Positions 4,426 through 53,156 of a stretch of DNA of 64,000 nucleotides are shown piece after piece. Origin of the DNA: Ignavibacteriales bacterium. Its GTDB lineage: Bacteria > Bacteroidota > Ignavibacteria > Ignavibacteriales > Melioribacteraceae. The stretch's first letter is position 1, and each line of letters starts with the position of its first letter. Where the stretch lies: NCBI GenBank assembly GCA_016177735.1, contig JACOUS010000029.1, forward strand, positions 1 through 64,000, read 5' to 3'. The position numbers and the translations under genes are program-made. The notes beneath the pieces are model-generated. The model was not told where the DNA came from, did not search any database, and saw only the letters and a list, made by a program, of their open reading frames with translations.

Positions 4426-4433
4426 AAAATAAG

Positions 4434-4508
4434 TACGAGGTACGAAGAAAGATACGAAGTACGAAGTTGGAAATACTAAGTATGAGGGTAAAAAGACGAA
4501 GTAAGAAC
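4434..4508 (+). repeat. Solo heptamer array (word TACGAAG)
   Basis: From eight bases after the gdhA stop, copies and variants of the 7-base word TACGAAG follow one another, mostly in phase: TACGAGG, TACGAAG, a 5-base slip, TACGAAG twice, then degenerate units such as TACTAAG, TATGAGG and GACGAAG. The same word flanks the S23 gene at 50597-50944. No S23 gene is present here. Confidence 0.8.
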
Positions 4509-23772: not shown

Positions 23773-23805
23773 AAATGGTAAATGGAAAATGGAAGATGGA
23801 AAATG
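23773..23805 (+). repeat. Heptamer array (word AAATGGN), left flank of S23 gene
   Basis: Nearly five in-phase units: AAATGGT, AAATGGA, AAATGGA, AGATGGA, AAATG. It lies between the S23 stop and the cusB ribosome site. The reverse-complement word lies on the other side of the S23 gene at 24228-24262. Confidence 0.85.
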
Positions 23806-23823
23806 TACATCAAGAAATATTCT

Positions 23824-24186
23824 CTATTTACCACTTGCTGTTATCTTTATTCTTGAAAAAATTGATTTTAGTTCTTTGCTTTCATTTGTTAGTCTATCTA
23901 ACGGGTTCTGATAAACCTCTTCTTTTAAGATTGCCTTGAACACTCTCAGCCAGTAATTCGATTCTCTTGCTTCTTTTAGAACGATTGATATTTTGTGCAC
24001 AAAATCATTTTTAGATTCAGCCGCTTGAGCTTCCTCGTAATTAGCACCGACTGAGGTGGCAGCTTTTGCTAATTGATAAGTTAAAACATCATTCACTTTG
24101 GATTTAGGAAGTGTGGATAAGAAAGTGAGAACATCAACACCAAATTGAAAAGTTCTTTCAAGTAATTCTTCGGTTTTGGGATCCAT
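23824..24186 (-). CDS. Four-helix-bundle protein (S23 / Avd-like family)
   Basis: A 120-residue all-helical protein. The diagnostic core is AKAATSVGANYEEAQAAESKNDF followed by ISIVLKEARESNYWLRVF, the signature of the pentameric four-helix-bundle family first met in 23S rRNA intervening sequences and related to the Avd protein of diversity-generating retroelements. The ATG at 24186 follows AGAGGTAAA; upstream in-frame codons reach into repeat DNA and are rejected. The gene sits inside the metal-efflux operon between tolC and cusB, on the same strand, but has no metal-related features. It is bracketed by inverted heptamer arrays, an arrangement repeated with a different word around 50597-50944. 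Function unknown; nucleic-acid binding is known for relatives. Confidence 0.88.
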   Translation of the reverse strand: MDPKTEELLERTFQFGVDVLTFLSTLPKSKVNDVLTYQLAKAATSVGANYEEAQAAESKNDFVHKISIVLKEARESNYWLRVFKAILKEEVYQNPLDRLTNESKELKSIFSRIKITASGK

Positions 24187-24227
24187 TGTTTTACCTCTGA
24201 TTTTTTTATACATGTTTTTCAATTTGT

Positions 24228-24262
24228 TCCTTTTCCCATTTCCCATTTACCATATTCCATTA
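24228..24262 (-). repeat. Heptamer array (word AAATGGN on minus), right flank of S23 gene
   Basis: Five contiguous 7-base units, on the minus strand TAATGGA, ATATGGT, AAATGGG, AAATGGG, AAAAGGA. They are inverted relative to 23773-23805, so a transcript of the S23 gene carries complementary arrays at its two ends. The array overlaps the last codon and stop of the tolC-like gene. Confidence 0.85.
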
Positions 24263-25648
24263 CTTGTTCTCAAGCCGCTGCCCAACCATCATTTCCATTT
24301 CTGCAACTGCCATTTGTATATCGGCTTTTGCCATGTAATAATTCATCTGCTGCATCAACAGCATTCTGTAGGAATCTATTACTGTGTTGATGTTTGTCCT
24401 TCCGTTTTGATAAGCGGAAACTTGTGCTTCTGCAGCTTTACCGTAAAGCGGAAGTACATTATTCGTGTACAAACGGACAAGATTATTTGCCGTGTTATAT
24501 TTTAAATATGCCTCGTTGAATTTTGCAGTCATATCTCTTGCCATATCGTTTCTTTCATATTCGATGCTGCTGATGCCGGCATACAATTCTTCTTCCTTTG
24601 CTTTTATTTTGTTGATTGACCACGGTGCAAAGGGAAGTGTAATCGATGCCATCAACGAATACATGTAATCTGTTTTTGCATCGAGCATTGTTAAATCAGC
24701 TTTTGATGTTAGTATCATTCCACGGGGCATTCTCATTATCATTCCTTGCAGCATTAAATCGGGAATCAATTCTTTGTTGTTTGCTGTTATCATCGAGCGG
24801 TTCATTTCTATCATGCTGTTCATTCTGTTGAGCGATGGATTTGTTTTCTGCAGCAGCTCAACTAATTCCGGCTGAGAGTATTTAATTGTATCTGCCGGCG
24901 TATCTTGAAGTGTGTAAACGTTTCTTGAATCCAGCACTCTGCCGAGAAGTTTGTTCAGTTTATAAATCTCCGCTTCTTTTTGATTGTTGAGAATTAACAG
25001 TAGTGTTTCATTAGCGGCTATCTCGCTTTGTATTGTCAGCAAATCGGCTTGATTGATACGATTGACTGCGTAGGAAACCTCAATTGATTTTATTAGATCA
25101 TTGAGAAGAAAAATATTTTTGTTCTGTACTTCAATTTTTTTTTCGATCGTCCACAATGTGAAATATGTCATCCGTATTTGTGCAATTAAATTGATTTTGT
25201 ACACTTCCAAAGTATTTTTTTCAACATTGATGTTTCTCTTTTCTACTTCTGCCATCGCACCAATTTTACCGCCGAGTGGAAACATTTGAGAAAGCGAAAG
25301 ATTATTCGAAATAGATTCATTGAAAATGTTTGTCTCGCTCACCGGCGTTTGGGAAAATTCCAACGAGAGACTCGGCGCCGGATAATTATTAACAGACTCC
25401 GCTCTAAATTCCGATGCACTGATTTTGTACTGTTGTGATTTCAACTGCGGATTGTTGAGCAAAGCTTCGTTGATTAGTGAATCCACGGATTGAGCATTTA
25501 TGTTTTGAAAAGATAGAAAAAGAAATAACACAGAGGACACCGAGCGTACGGAGTTCCACAGAGCAGCTCTCATTTTCCATTTACCGTTTTCCATTTCCCA
25601 TTTCCCATTTTTTAATTCTGCATTCTTCATTCTGCATTCTACACTCAT
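24260..25648 (-). CDS. TolC-family outer-membrane efflux protein
   Basis: The outer-membrane channel of the Cu/Ag RND system, 462 residues from ATG 25648, which follows GGAGGG at the end of cusA. The body has the duplicated TolC pattern: NPQLKSQQYKISASEFRAESV, PSLSLEFSQ, SQMFPLGGKIGAMAEVEKRN, then the second half with LPFAPWSINKIKAKEEELYA and QNGRTNINTVIDSYRMLL. The first 40 or so codons are unusual: they are written in repeat DNA (ATTCTNC and CCATTTN heptamers, then a CACAGAG-type repeat), giving a lysine-rich tail before the hydrophobic stretch VSSVLFLFLSF and the cleavage site at NINAQS. Translation from internal ATG 25573 would give a conventional signal peptide. Both starts are open. Confidence 0.88.
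   Translation of the reverse strand: MSVECRMKNAELKNGKWEMENGKWKMRAALWNSVRSVSSVLFLFLSFQNINAQSVDSLINEALLNNPQLKSQQYKISASEFRAESVNNYPAPSLSLEFSQTPVSETNIFNESISNNLSLSQMFPLGGKIGAMAEVEKRNINVEKNTLEVYKINLIAQIRMTYFTLWTIEKKIEVQNKNIFLLNDLIKSIEVSYAVNRINQADLLTIQSEIAANETLLLILNNQKEAEIYKLNKLLGRVLDSRNVYTLQDTPADTIKYSQPELVELLQKTNPSLNRMNSMIEMNRSMITANNKELIPDLMLQGMIMRMPRGMILTSKADLTMLDAKTDYMYSLMASITLPFAPWSINKIKAKEEELYAGISSIEYERNDMARDMTAKFNEAYLKYNTANNLVRLYTNNVLPLYGKAAEAQVSAYQNGRTNINTVIDSYRMLLMQQMNYYMAKADIQMAVAEMEMMVGQRLENK
25528..25567 (+). repeat. CACAGAG-type dispersed repeat within tolC
   Basis: Four GAG words at nine- to ten-base spacing (ACACAGAG, ACACCGAG, GTACGGAG, TTCCACAGAG) resemble the repeat at 45294-45356. 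Here the DNA is translated on the minus strand as the hydrophobic core of the TolC signal peptide. Confidence 0.6.
25570..25642 (-). repeat. Two stacked heptamer arrays at the 5' end of tolC
   Basis: 25577-25611 holds five units of CCATTTN (complement of the AAATGGN word at the nearby S23 gene); 25615-25642 holds four perfect-phase units of ATTCTNC (ATTCTGC, ATTCTTC, ATTCTGC, ATTCTAC). Both are inside the reading frame of the TolC-like protein. No S23 gene is attached to this pair directly. Confidence 0.85.
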
Positions 25649-25649
25649 T

Positions 25650-49622: not shown

Positions 49623-50408
49623 TTGATAAAAAATAATACTGCGCTCAAAAAAAAATTGGATTACCACTACAAGTTTTTCGACTGCTCGCAAATCTCGCCC
49701 GATCCTCTCGAATTTCTTCACAAGTATTCCGGCTTTCACGATATCGAGATTGCCGGAATACTTTCTGCTTTGTTTGCATACGGCAATGTAAAACAAATTA
49801 TCTCGACTCTCGAAAAAATTCATAATGTAATGAATCGGAAACCGTACGAGTTTGTGATGAATTATAATTATGTGCACAGCAAAAAAATATTTACGAATAT
49901 CAAACACAGATTTTTTACGCACGAAGACATTGCAAAACTTTTCCGTGCACTTCATTTGGTTTACAATAAAGAAGGTACACTTAAAAATATTTTCCAAAAA
50001 TTATATGGGAAAGAACAAAGCATAAAAAATTCCATTGCCGCATTTTCCAATTTAATGGTTGAACTTATTGCAAATAAACATGAAGTATCGCACGGAATAA
50101 AATTTATGTTTCCCGATCCCGAAAAGGGAAGTGCATGCAAAAGAATGAATTTGTTTCTTCGTTGGATGGTGCGGAAAGATGAACTTGATTTCGGGTTGTG
50201 GGATGGAATTCCTACTTCGCAATTAATTATTCCGGTTGATACGCATGTTGCAAAAATTTGCCGCATGCTAAAATTAACACACCGAAAAAATGTATCGTGG
50301 CAAATGGCAGAAGAAATTACAGAGGAACTAAAAATACTTGACCCCGATGATCCGGTGAAATATGATTTTGCAATCTGCCATATCGGGATGAGAAAAATAC
50401 CACTGTAG
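49623..50408 (+). CDS. TIGR02757/DUF2400-family protein
   Basis: A 261-residue protein of a conserved uncharacterised family. LLEFLHKYSGFHDIEIAG-like start (here DPLEFLHKYSGFHDIEIAGILSALFAYGN), GSACKRMNLFLRWMVRKDELDFGLW and IIPVDTHVAKICRMLKL are typical. The helical layout with VDTH and a helix-hairpin-helix-like region recalls the endonuclease III/DNA glycosylase fold, but no enzymatic role is established to my knowledge. The start is TTG 49623, shortly after AAAGG, and 11 bases beyond the T9SS protein stop; no ATG is available near it. Confidence 0.85.
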   Translation: MIKNNTALKKKLDYHYKFFDCSQISPDPLEFLHKYSGFHDIEIAGILSALFAYGNVKQIISTLEKIHNVMNRKPYEFVMNYNYVHSKKIFTNIKHRFFTHEDIAKLFRALHLVYNKEGTLKNIFQKLYGKEQSIKNSIAAFSNLMVELIANKHEVSHGIKFMFPDPEKGSACKRMNLFLRWMVRKDELDFGLWDGIPTSQLIIPVDTHVAKICRMLKLTHRKNVSWQMAEEITEELKILDPDDPVKYDFAICHIGMRKIPL

Positions 50409-50416
50409 GTCCGGGG

Positions 50417-50547
50417 TACGAGTAAGTAAAAAGTACGGGGTACGATCCGCCTTAGGCGGAACGAAGTACGAAAAAGAAAGGACGGAGAAAAGTACGAAGT
50501 ACGAAGTTAGAAGGACGAATGAAAAACAAAAAATACGAAGTTCGAAA
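50417..50547 (+). repeat. Heptamer array (word TACGAAG), left flank of second S23 gene
   Basis: Units and variants of TACGAAG (TACGAGT, TACGGGG, TACGAAA, GACGGAG, TACGAAG twice at 50493-50506, TTAGAAG, GACGAAT, TACGAAG at 50534, TTCGAAA), mostly in seven-base phase. A palindrome at 50446-50460 splits one unit. The inverted counterpart is at 51028-51081. Confidence 0.85.
50446..50460. repeat. Palindrome inserted in heptamer array
   Basis: TCCGCCT, one T, then AGGCGGA: seven-base arms around one base. It interrupts TACGA and ACGAAG, as if inserted into an existing array. Confidence 0.7.
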
Positions 50548-50596
50548 TGGGATTTATGAATAATGAGTTACAAAATTTTGCAATTTCTTCTAAAAA

Positions 50597-50944
50597 CTAT
50601 CTGTCAATTTTATTCTTGATCGAGATTGAAGAGAAAATTGCAGTCAACTCGTCCGCTTCTTTTAATAAAACCACCGATGAATTTGAATCAGCTAATCCTG
50701 ATTCAATAATTAATTCAAGCCAATAAATTGATTCATCAGATTCTTCTTCGACCACTTTTATTTTGTAATTGAAATCGGCTTTGGATTTCGCTCTTGATGC
50801 TGCGCGGTAATTAGCTCCGACAGATGTACCGGCTCTTAATAATTGATTACCAAGAGTATTGCAAACTGGATTTTTAGGGAGACTCAAAACAAATTTTATA
50901 ATATCCAGAGCAAATTTTTTTGTTCTTGATTTTAAATCTTGCAT
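50597..50944 (-). CDS. Four-helix-bundle protein (S23 / Avd-like family), second copy
   Basis: A 115-residue helical protein from ATG 50944 (GGAGAGG immediately upstream). It shares with the 23824-24186 protein the block RAGTSVGANYRAASRAKSKADF and KVVEEESDESIYWLELI, the family signature; the two are clearly homologous but far from identical, so this is not a recent duplication. It stands alone between the TIGR02757 gene and the OPT transporter, on the opposite strand to both. Inverted arrays of TACGAAG heptamers lie 50 bases beyond its stop and 83 bases before its start. Function unknown. Confidence 0.88.
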   Translation of the reverse strand: MQDLKSRTKKFALDIIKFVLSLPKNPVCNTLGNQLLRAGTSVGANYRAASRAKSKADFNYKIKVVEEESDESIYWLELIIESGLADSNSSVVLLKEADELTAIFSSISIKNKIDR

Positions 50945-51027
50945 AGCCTCTCCAAAATTTTTTATCAAAAAAAAATGTTACGCAAAATTCGAATTCCCAA
51001 TTTCATCCTTTGTAATTTTTCGTTCAT

Positions 51028-51081
51028 CTTCGTCCCTCGTACTTCGTACATATCTTCGTCCCTCGTACTTCGTATTTCGTA
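51028..51081 (-). repeat. Heptamer array (word TACGAAG on minus), right flank of second S23 gene
   Basis: Read on the minus strand: TACGAAA, TACGAAG, TACGAGG, GACGAAG, a five-base spacer, then TACGAAG, TACGAGG, GACGAAG. The three-unit block is an exact 21-base direct repeat (51028-51048 and 51054-51074). Orientation is opposite to the array at 50417-50547. Confidence 0.88.
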
Positions 51082-51191
51082 CTTTAAAAAAGGTGTTGCT
51101 CAGCTAACATTACATCTTTATATTAGCCGCACATTTAAATAATTTTTTGTTCATATAATCAAATAAACACACACCATTCTCAGGAGAACTT

Positions 51192-53156
51192 ATGGCGGAA
51201 CAAAAAAAGTTTGTCCCCTTTGTCTCATCCGAAACCAACATGGCAGAATTCACAATACGTGCATTGATCATCGGATTGGTCATGTCGGTAATCTTGGGTG
51301 CCGCAAATGCATACCTCGGTTTAAAAGCTGGAATGACTATTGCCGCAACATACCCGGCGGCAGTAATCGGTATGGCGTTAATCAGATTATTTAAAGGAAC
51401 AATATTAGAAGAAAATTTTGCAAGAACAGTCGGTTCGATAGGCGAATCAATTGCAGCCGGCGCAACATTTACTTTGCCGGCTTTTTTTATTGCCGGAATT
51501 TGGGTGCCGTTTTTCTCAACCGGAAATTATATGGTCTCTGCCGCAATTATGGCTGCCGGCGGCGTACTTGGAATTATGTTTGTTGCTTTGTTACGAAAGG
51601 TAATGGTTGAAGATGTTGATCTTCCGTTTCCGGAATCTGTTGCCGCGGCAGAAATTCATAAATCGGGAAGAAGCGGTGGTACCGGATCCAAATTTTTATT
51701 CTCTGCTATGGGCATCGGCGCCGTTGTAGAAATCTTAAAACAATTCAAACTGTTTGCACCGAATGCTGACGGATTGTTCTCGCTGAGCAAAGGAAATATT
51801 TTATTCAGATCACCAGATATTAGTCCCGCATACATGGGCGTTGGTTATATAATCGGTCCGCGGCTTGCCGCATTAAATTTTAGCGGTGGCGTTATTGCGT
51901 GGGGATTGTTAGCACCAATGATTGCGTATTTTAAATTTGGCGATACACCGATGGAAGGAAAAGATTGGGCTGGCACAATAATACAAGTTTGGAGAGATTA
52001 TGTTAGACCAATCGCAATCGGCGGAATGCTTGTTGGAGCGAGCTTCACACTTTGGAAAATGAGAAAAAATTTGATTGCCGGAATTTCGCGCTCAATCGGC
52101 GACGTTAAAAAAGCTGCTGCCGGCGAATCAAATCATGTTGAAAGAATTGAAAAAGATATTCCGTTCAAATGGATTTTAATCGGAATCGGATTAACCGGCG
52201 TAGCTACATTTTTCATTTATAATTATTTCGCACAAGATATTTTTGCCGCACTTGTTGCAACAGTTGTAATGATTATTGCCGGATTTTTCTTCGCCGCTGT
52301 TTCCGGCTATCTCGTAGGAATAATTGGTTCATCAAATAACCCGATAAGCGGATTGACACTTTCCACACTTGTTGTTGCCGCACTTTTAATGGTTGCACTC
52401 GGGATGAGCGGAAACACCGGTGTTGCTGCTGTGCTCGGTGTTGCTGCCGTTGTATGCGTTTCTGCCGCAGTAGCCGGAGAGATGCTGCAAGATTTGAAAG
52501 CCGGACATTTTCTCGGCGGTACTCCGTGGAAAATGCAAATTGGCGATCTTTTCGGAATTGCACTTTCATCCGTTGTAATGTTTTATCCTTTGATGGTTCT
52601 TCATGAAGGTGATATTAAAGCCGGTGGAACCGGATTTGGCGGTGATGCACTTGCCGCTCCGCAAGCAAGTTTGATGGCAATCCTTTCCAAAGGAATTGTT
52701 GCCGGCGATATGGAATGGATTTTAATTCTCGTTGGTATGTTGATGGGAGTAGGATTCATTTTGATGAACGTAAAAAGTCCGATGCTTGTAAGTGTTGGAA
52801 TGTATCTTCCGCTCGGAACAACCTTTGCAATTTTTGTCGGTGGTTTGATAAAAGGAATTGTGGAGAGATTTAACGAGAAACGCAAATTTAACGATGCACA
52901 AAAATCGAGAGTGGAAAATACCGGAATACTTATTTCTGCCGGATTGATTGCCGGCGAAGCGCTGGTAGGATTGTTGTTTGCAACGATAATGTTCTTTGCA
53001 GAAAAACGTCCGAGTGAAATATTCTCGTTCTTTGAAGAGCCGTCGTTCATTATAAGCATACTTGTTGTTGTTGCACTTGCTTACTTACTTGTTAGTGTGC
53101 CGTTGAAAAATGCGGGCAAACCCCAAGACCCGGCACCACCACAAGTTTCCATGTAA
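51192..53156 (+). CDS. OPT-family oligopeptide transporter
   Basis: A 654-residue integral membrane protein with about 14-16 hydrophobic segments. Its N-terminal region TIRALIIGLVMSVILGAANAYLGLKAGMTIAATYPAAVIGMALIR is the OPT/YSL signature, and a long cytoplasmic loop with charged residues lies near 300-325. The family imports peptides or metal chelates with protons; the substrate cannot be told. AGGAGAA precedes the ATG. A PqqD-like protein and the dipeptidase PepD follow on the same strand, which would fit peptide uptake and hydrolysis. Confidence 0.92.
   Translation: MAEQKKFVPFVSSETNMAEFTIRALIIGLVMSVILGAANAYLGLKAGMTIAATYPAAVIGMALIRLFKGTILEENFARTVGSIGESIAAGATFTLPAFFIAGIWVPFFSTGNYMVSAAIMAAGGVLGIMFVALLRKVMVEDVDLPFPESVAAAEIHKSGRSGGTGSKFLFSAMGIGAVVEILKQFKLFAPNADGLFSLSKGNILFRSPDISPAYMGVGYIIGPRLAALNFSGGVIAWGLLAPMIAYFKFGDTPMEGKDWAGTIIQVWRDYVRPIAIGGMLVGASFTLWKMRKNLIAGISRSIGDVKKAAAGESNHVERIEKDIPFKWILIGIGLTGVATFFIYNYFAQDIFAALVATVVMIIAGFFFAAVSGYLVGIIGSSNNPISGLTLSTLVVAALLMVALGMSGNTGVAAVLGVAAVVCVSAAVAGEMLQDLKAGHFLGGTPWKMQIGDLFGIALSSVVMFYPLMVLHEGDIKAGGTGFGGDALAAPQASLMAILSKGIVAGDMEWILILVGMLMGVGFILMNVKSPMLVSVGMYLPLGTTFAIFVGGLIKGIVERFNEKRKFNDAQKSRVENTGILISAGLIAGEALVGLLFATIMFFAEKRPSEIFSFFEEPSFIISILVVVALAYLLVSVPLKNAGKPQDPAPPQVSM

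Follow-up and report, generated by a model that had tools for sequence, protein, structure and literature searches.

Proteins of the S23 family (TIGR02436) are common, but to our knowledge no function has been assigned to them. S23-encoding intervening sequences (IVS) occur in the 23S rRNA genes of Leptospira and Coxiella, and S23 shares a fold kinship with Avd of diversity-generating retroelements. Another system of relevance is the REPtron, in which a protein gene lies between inverted copies of its cognate repeat, and which is accompanied by many solo repeats. In Coxiella, the 23S IVS comprises an S23 ORF, preceded by tandem GACAGAT heptamers, and a 28-bp terminal stem, and is excised by RNase III; the authors judged the protein product expendable (PMC4990558). 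Tandem intergenic heptamers, the STRR and TAACTGA repeats, were described in Cyanobacteria, Beggiatoaceae and Bacteroidetes; they are direct repeats, may be present in one genome and missing at the equivalent site of a relative, and were reported with no mention of S23 genes (PMC4679880). An earlier note on this DNA knew of no description that connects short tandem heptamers with S23 genes. Apart from the Coxiella IVS, our search of the open-access literature gave no paper that connects S23 genes with heptamer arrays.

In this study, we analysed a window of 64,000 nucleotides from a bacterium of the Ignavibacteriales, family Melioribacteraceae (contig JACOUS010000029.1, assembly GCA_016177735.1), the features of which are collected in Table 1. 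The focal product belongs to the S23 family, with scores of 74.9 bits for TIGR02436 (curated cut-off 24) and 55.5 bits for PF05635 (cut-off 33.8). Its gene is located between two protein genes and not inside an rRNA gene, and is antisense to both neighbours, which we take to be a TIGR02757/DUF2400-like gene upstream and an OPT-family transporter gene downstream. The gene is enclosed by TACGAAG-type arrays in opposite orientation, as described in the earlier note: the arms of about 100 bp (50461-50563 against the reverse complement of 50978-51080) reach an inverted-repeat (IR) score of 38 in the best local alignment, compared with a mean of 11.4 and a maximum of 20 in 1000 dinucleotide shuffles. 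The exact duplication noted in the right array is real, but it measures 23 bases (copies at 51026-51048 and 51052-51074) and not 21. The left array is broken by the palindrome GATCCGCCTTAGGCGGAAC. Palindromes of the form GATCCGCC(G/T)TAGGCGGAAC were found repeatedly in TACGAAG arrays, both in the window (50447-50462) and at loci L050, L381, L382 and L392, and the arrays of L046 and L032 hold a similar one. Between the focal arms, PF05635 was the sole Pfam match, and neither Y1_Tnp (HUH) nor any other transposase was found there. The second S23 gene of the window, also a TIGR02436/PF05635 member, has a like layout with a different word, again in agreement with the earlier note (AATGGAA/TTTCCAT-type arms, IR score 19, p~0.002). 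Because its longest frame extends into the array, translation probably begins further in, at an ATG near 24186.

Table 1. Coordinates of the S23 elements, their neighbours and solo arrays in the window.
Feature	Position	Strand	Remarks
S23/four-helix-bundle gene (focal), 115 aa	50597..50944	-	TIGR02436 5.2e-21, PF05635 7.3e-15, PDB 2RLD 3.1e-13
Left heptamer array (3' side of focal S23 gene)	50417..50563	+	word GTACGAA/TACGAAG; best-aligned arm 50461-50563
Palindrome CCGCCTTAGGCGG breaking the focal left array	50447-50462
Right array (5' side of focal S23 gene), focal word inverted	50978..51084	-	exact 23-base duplication inside
Upstream neighbour of focal element	49623..50408	+	adjoins OPT gene in 20/30 genomes; one flank of orthologous insertion site
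Downstream neighbour of focal element	51192..53156	+	other flank of insertion site
Second S23 gene	23824..24246	-	TIGR02436 2.6e-20
Left array, second S23 element	23773..23805	+	word AAATGGA
Right array, second S23 element	24227..24261	-	inverted word TTTCCCA/TTTACCA
Solo array without S23, focal word TACGAAG	4427..4500	+	aligns to the host's S23 arrays with 26 vs 13.9 for foreign sets
Solo array without S23	25568..25649	.	second element's word and ATTCTGC word of the contig C15 S23 element

The association of S23 genes with inverted heptamer arrays is general. S23 is present in 77 of 79 Melioribacteraceae genomes, with up to 31 copies; ORF calling was simple and many of these genomes are metagenome assemblies. 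Arms were compared by aligning the 250 bases before each gene locally with the reverse-complemented 250 bases after it. The median IR score was 18 for 84 S23 genes and 11 both for 1064 other genes and for S23 flanks paired across loci, and scores of at least 20 were reached by 33/84 S23 genes, 15/1064 other genes and 17/830 cross-locus flank pairs. In an independent set of named contigs, mostly from Bacteroidota and searched with an alignment of three S23 sequences, 57 of 96 S23 genes but only 5 of 244 other genes scored 18 or more. Two expectations of the earlier note were borne out. Heptamers are commoner at S23 genes than elsewhere, as the best period was 7 or 14 in 172/438 S23 flanks (39%) and 15/410 control flanks (3.7%). 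Left and right words also agree in other genomes: in 142 of 219 S23 loci from Melioribacteraceae and the wider Bacteroidota, the inverted arms are specific to the locus at p<=0.05, where 11 would be expected. The significance values here and below take no account of relatedness. Read in the direction of the S23 gene, the array units share the core AGWNNNN, with a phase set by AG, which is also the most regular dinucleotide. An S23 subfamily without arrays (L008, L019, L235, L236) looks domesticated. Taken together, an S23 gene with cognate inverted arrays is supported as a recurrent unit.

This unit appears and disappears as a block at gene junctions, an observation that supports mobility and that answers the presence/absence check proposed in the earlier note, although gain is not polarised against loss at the junctions compared. 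The junctions include nuoC-nuoD, beta-oxidation genes and other enzyme pairs, names that we presume from reading the neighbour proteins. At nuoC-nuoD, the gap is at most 30 nt in 39 of 67 genomes, with neither S23 nor array, and exceeds 400 nt in 19, where one array directly follows the nuoC stop codon and an inverted array precedes nuoD. An S23 model match was obtained in 18 of these 19 occupied junctions, L168 being the exception; other nuoC-nuoD junctions hold remnants, among them that of the host genome itself (L115). The nuoC stop codon is TAG in 18/19 occupied and 7/39 empty sites; more generally, the gene upstream of S23 ends in TAG in 38% vs 17%. The S23 tree, based on few columns, requires six label changes at nuoC-nuoD and is compatible with a single origin. 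At the focal TIGR02757-OPT junction, synteny is kept in 20 of 30 loci, including that of the host; ten of these 20 are empty and lack arrays. Related S23 genes on the plus strand share the TACGAAG word in G065 and G069, a TACGAAG hairpin without S23 is found in G026, and further loci have a different word (TTGAGAATT) and no S23. Therefore, one and the same junction occurs in empty, full, inverted and S23-less states. A target-site duplication was not readable at either site, because the arrays abut the stop codon there. In the Bacteroidota loci L281, L288, L289, L308 and L310, S23 elements are located at successive junctions of one operon, presumably of beta-oxidation (hydroxyacyl-CoA dehydrogenase, thiolase, acyl-CoA dehydrogenase).

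The heptamer words track S23 lineage across unrelated sites. Words of elements from different sites (4947 pairs) show no trend in similarity as long as the S23 proteins are less than 50% identical, but reach a similarity of 18 at 60-70% identity and of 22 above 70%. This rise is confined to words compared in the same direction with respect to S23, whereas the opposite orientation stays flat. The observed mean of 16.99 lies above the maximum of 12.9 in 2000 permutations. In G074 and G078, a block of 86% identity that extends from array to array occupies two distinct junctions, with homology fading at the outer arrays. Left and right words also go together at one orthologous site: in nuoC-nuoD elements, arms match better within an element than between elements (17.9 vs 12.3, p<=0.0002), and therefore both arms change together. 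Near-identical recent copies at two sites of one genome were not found, the best different-site pair of whole units having about 86% DNA identity. Purifying selection acts on the S23 gene itself (median dN/dS of 0.075 in 32 pairs).

Arrays with the words of these elements also occur on their own. The host genome has eight S23 genes, seven of them with matching words on both sides as judged by eye (two of these weak), and only one S23 gene has the focal word. Allowing up to two mismatches, the focal word gave 124 matches in the host genome and the reversed-word control gave two; counted from the matches listed, they cover about 40 or more separate places. Solo arrays were surveyed over ~464 kb of the host genome, where strong S23-less arrays bear words of the host's own S23 elements and not foreign ones, and at 20 focal-word sites, of which none has S23, 16 have the word in one orientation only and three are compact inverted hairpins. 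Other genes are also found between arrays. At L050:14903-15584, two direct TACGAAG arrays enclose a small gene pair that by eye looks like BrnT/BrnA, and each array is followed by a similar sequence of ~60 bases. In the host genome, a gene for a SemiSWEET-like small membrane protein (by eye; L053:1340-1601) lies between inverted arrays without S23.

Because of the block behaviour, the coupling of word and lineage and the solo copies, we favour a mobile unit with the arrays as its ends. It appears reasonably probable that the focal copy is a REPtron-like, IVS-related mobile unit of about 0.4-0.7 kb, composed of the S23 gene and two inverted cognate-heptamer arrays and accompanied by solo copies, and the array-S23-array units as a whole suggest a small mobile element of a kind not yet described. 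Potentially, gene junctions gain and lose the unit as a whole, mostly within operons and in sense direction, while S23-less arrays, as solo arrays or short hairpins, would be left in the genome or spread through it. The arrays would be served by S23, which we infer to bind the array word and thereby to bring the ends together. Cutting and joining might be performed by a nuclease of the host or of another mobile element; such an outside enzyme is assumed because we know of no catalytic activity of S23. Against the mobile reading, the unit contains no catalytic gene.

Alternatively, the arms might act in RNA, much as in the rRNA IVS: they would form a stem in the operon transcript that is cut by RNase III or a similar enzyme, the S23 segment would thereby be taken out or processed with no harm to the neighbours, and spread would be secondary. 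The elements are indeed mostly co-directional within operons, with the upstream neighbour in the direction of S23 in 209 of 215 cases and the downstream neighbour in 202 of 215 (background 79%). Folding of the full focal transcript (50417-51084, minus strand), as proposed in the earlier note, predicts a strong structure (MFE -190.5 kcal/mol, z -9.5 against 20 shuffles) with paired arms and the ORF as the loop, and at least 12 arm-arm pairs are predicted in the MFE structures of 95/120 elements compared with 62/124 control ORFs. The Coxiella IVS, with its S23 ORF, 28-bp stem, RNase III excision and heptamers, offers a precedent (PMC4990558). However, the arm mismatches show no wobble excess (252 G-U, 279 A-C), and selection for an RNA stem is thus unsupported despite the strong fold. 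Moreover, the focal copy is an exception that runs antisense to both neighbours, and solo arrays, being mostly in one orientation, are unable to form a stem. We consider this RNA reading unlikely. Of the earlier proposal of a mobile or RNA-structured unit, the mobile part thus gains support from block-wise presence and absence, while the missing G-U excess speaks against a selected RNA stem.

The similarity of the two arms might also be maintained by hairpin-mediated template switching (quasi-palindrome correction), with S23 in the loop by chance. This would fit the orthologous nuoC-nuoD elements, in which the arms stay matched while the words drift. Template switching may act within the elements, but it leaves unexplained the words shared at unrelated sites with related S23, the rarity of such arms at other genes and the array-free empty sites, and as an explanation of the whole it is quite improbable. 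Very improbable is the idea that the arrays are ordinary STRR-like genome-wide repeats which chance or assembly bias has placed close to S23. Solo arrays do abound in the host genome, but the comparison with control genes already contradicts this idea, as do the inverted pairing and the lineage-specific words. A retroelement relative, in which S23 would work like Avd with a reverse transcriptase in trans, is scarcely credible. Fold kinship and sense orientation in operons would favour it, but a reverse transcriptase occurs in only 22 of 79 genomes, is lacking in 14 of the 20 that have ten or more S23 genes and does not correlate with S23 (rho 0.13), so that this reading is already largely contradicted. 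The host genome has one reverse transcriptase, on contig C22, whereas the focal locus is on C28 and showed no reverse transcriptase with template and variable repeats; the tie to diversity-generating retroelements drawn in the earlier note was thus not sustained, most S23-rich genomes lacking the enzyme.

The array layout is not exclusive to S23. In Melioribacteraceae, genes of the unrelated GxxExxY family (PDDEXK_3, PF13366; L347-L376) likewise lie in inverted arrays with other, longer words, e.g. CACAGAGAA or CGCAAAG, and 15/21 of them reached an IR score of at least 18, compared with 21/420 mismatched pairs. Stand-alone genes that resemble Cas4 by eye adjoin S23 genes and share array words at L104:9307-9802 and L073:10398-10917, possibly forming two-gene elements. 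RAYT was considered as the absent enzyme. Y1_Tnp counts correlate with S23 counts (rho 0.60, and 0.53 once genome size is allowed for). We take this as no more than a hint, as S23 occurs without Y1_Tnp in eight genomes and the correlation of GxxExxY counts is similar. RAYT-like genes (by eye) with inverted palindromic repeats in a REPtron layout occur in genomes shared with S23 (L103:14245, L080:12579, L107:18013).

More tentatively, the units might constitute a class of mobile elements whose sole gene encodes a non-enzymatic S23 protein recognising its own arrays, with the arrays as ends, S23-less arrays as non-autonomous copies and the rRNA IVS as a specialised rRNA branch; we regard this wider reading as possible, with some doubt. 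As each S23 lineage has its own cognate word, it becomes testable whether the protein binds that word and whether the unit moves; this bears on the origin of rRNA intervening sequences. If true, the mobile-unit reading would account for many heptamer repeats in Bacteroidota genomes.

With STRR, the element shares tandem intergenic 7-mers, which are inverted around S23 here and direct there. REP/RAYT systems, of which REPtron-like loci were recovered among our control genes, resemble it in having a gene between inverted copies of its repeat and dispersed cognate solo copies; however, the REPtron protein is a Y1 (HUH) transposase and not S23, and REPs are GC-rich palindromes whereas the repeats of the element are short, degenerate tandem heptamers. 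As in the 23S rRNA IVS, an S23 ORF is enclosed by complementary ends in a strong stem-loop, and the Coxiella IVS has heptamers as well. In contrast to the rRNA IVS, the element is located in protein-coding operons and intergenic regions and its ends are whole heptamer arrays, and it differs from the Coxiella IVS in the purifying selection on its S23 gene and in its dispersed solo arrays. Since an S23 ORF, a terminal stem and heptamers are found together in the Coxiella IVS too, the rRNA IVS and the array-S23-array element are probably kin.
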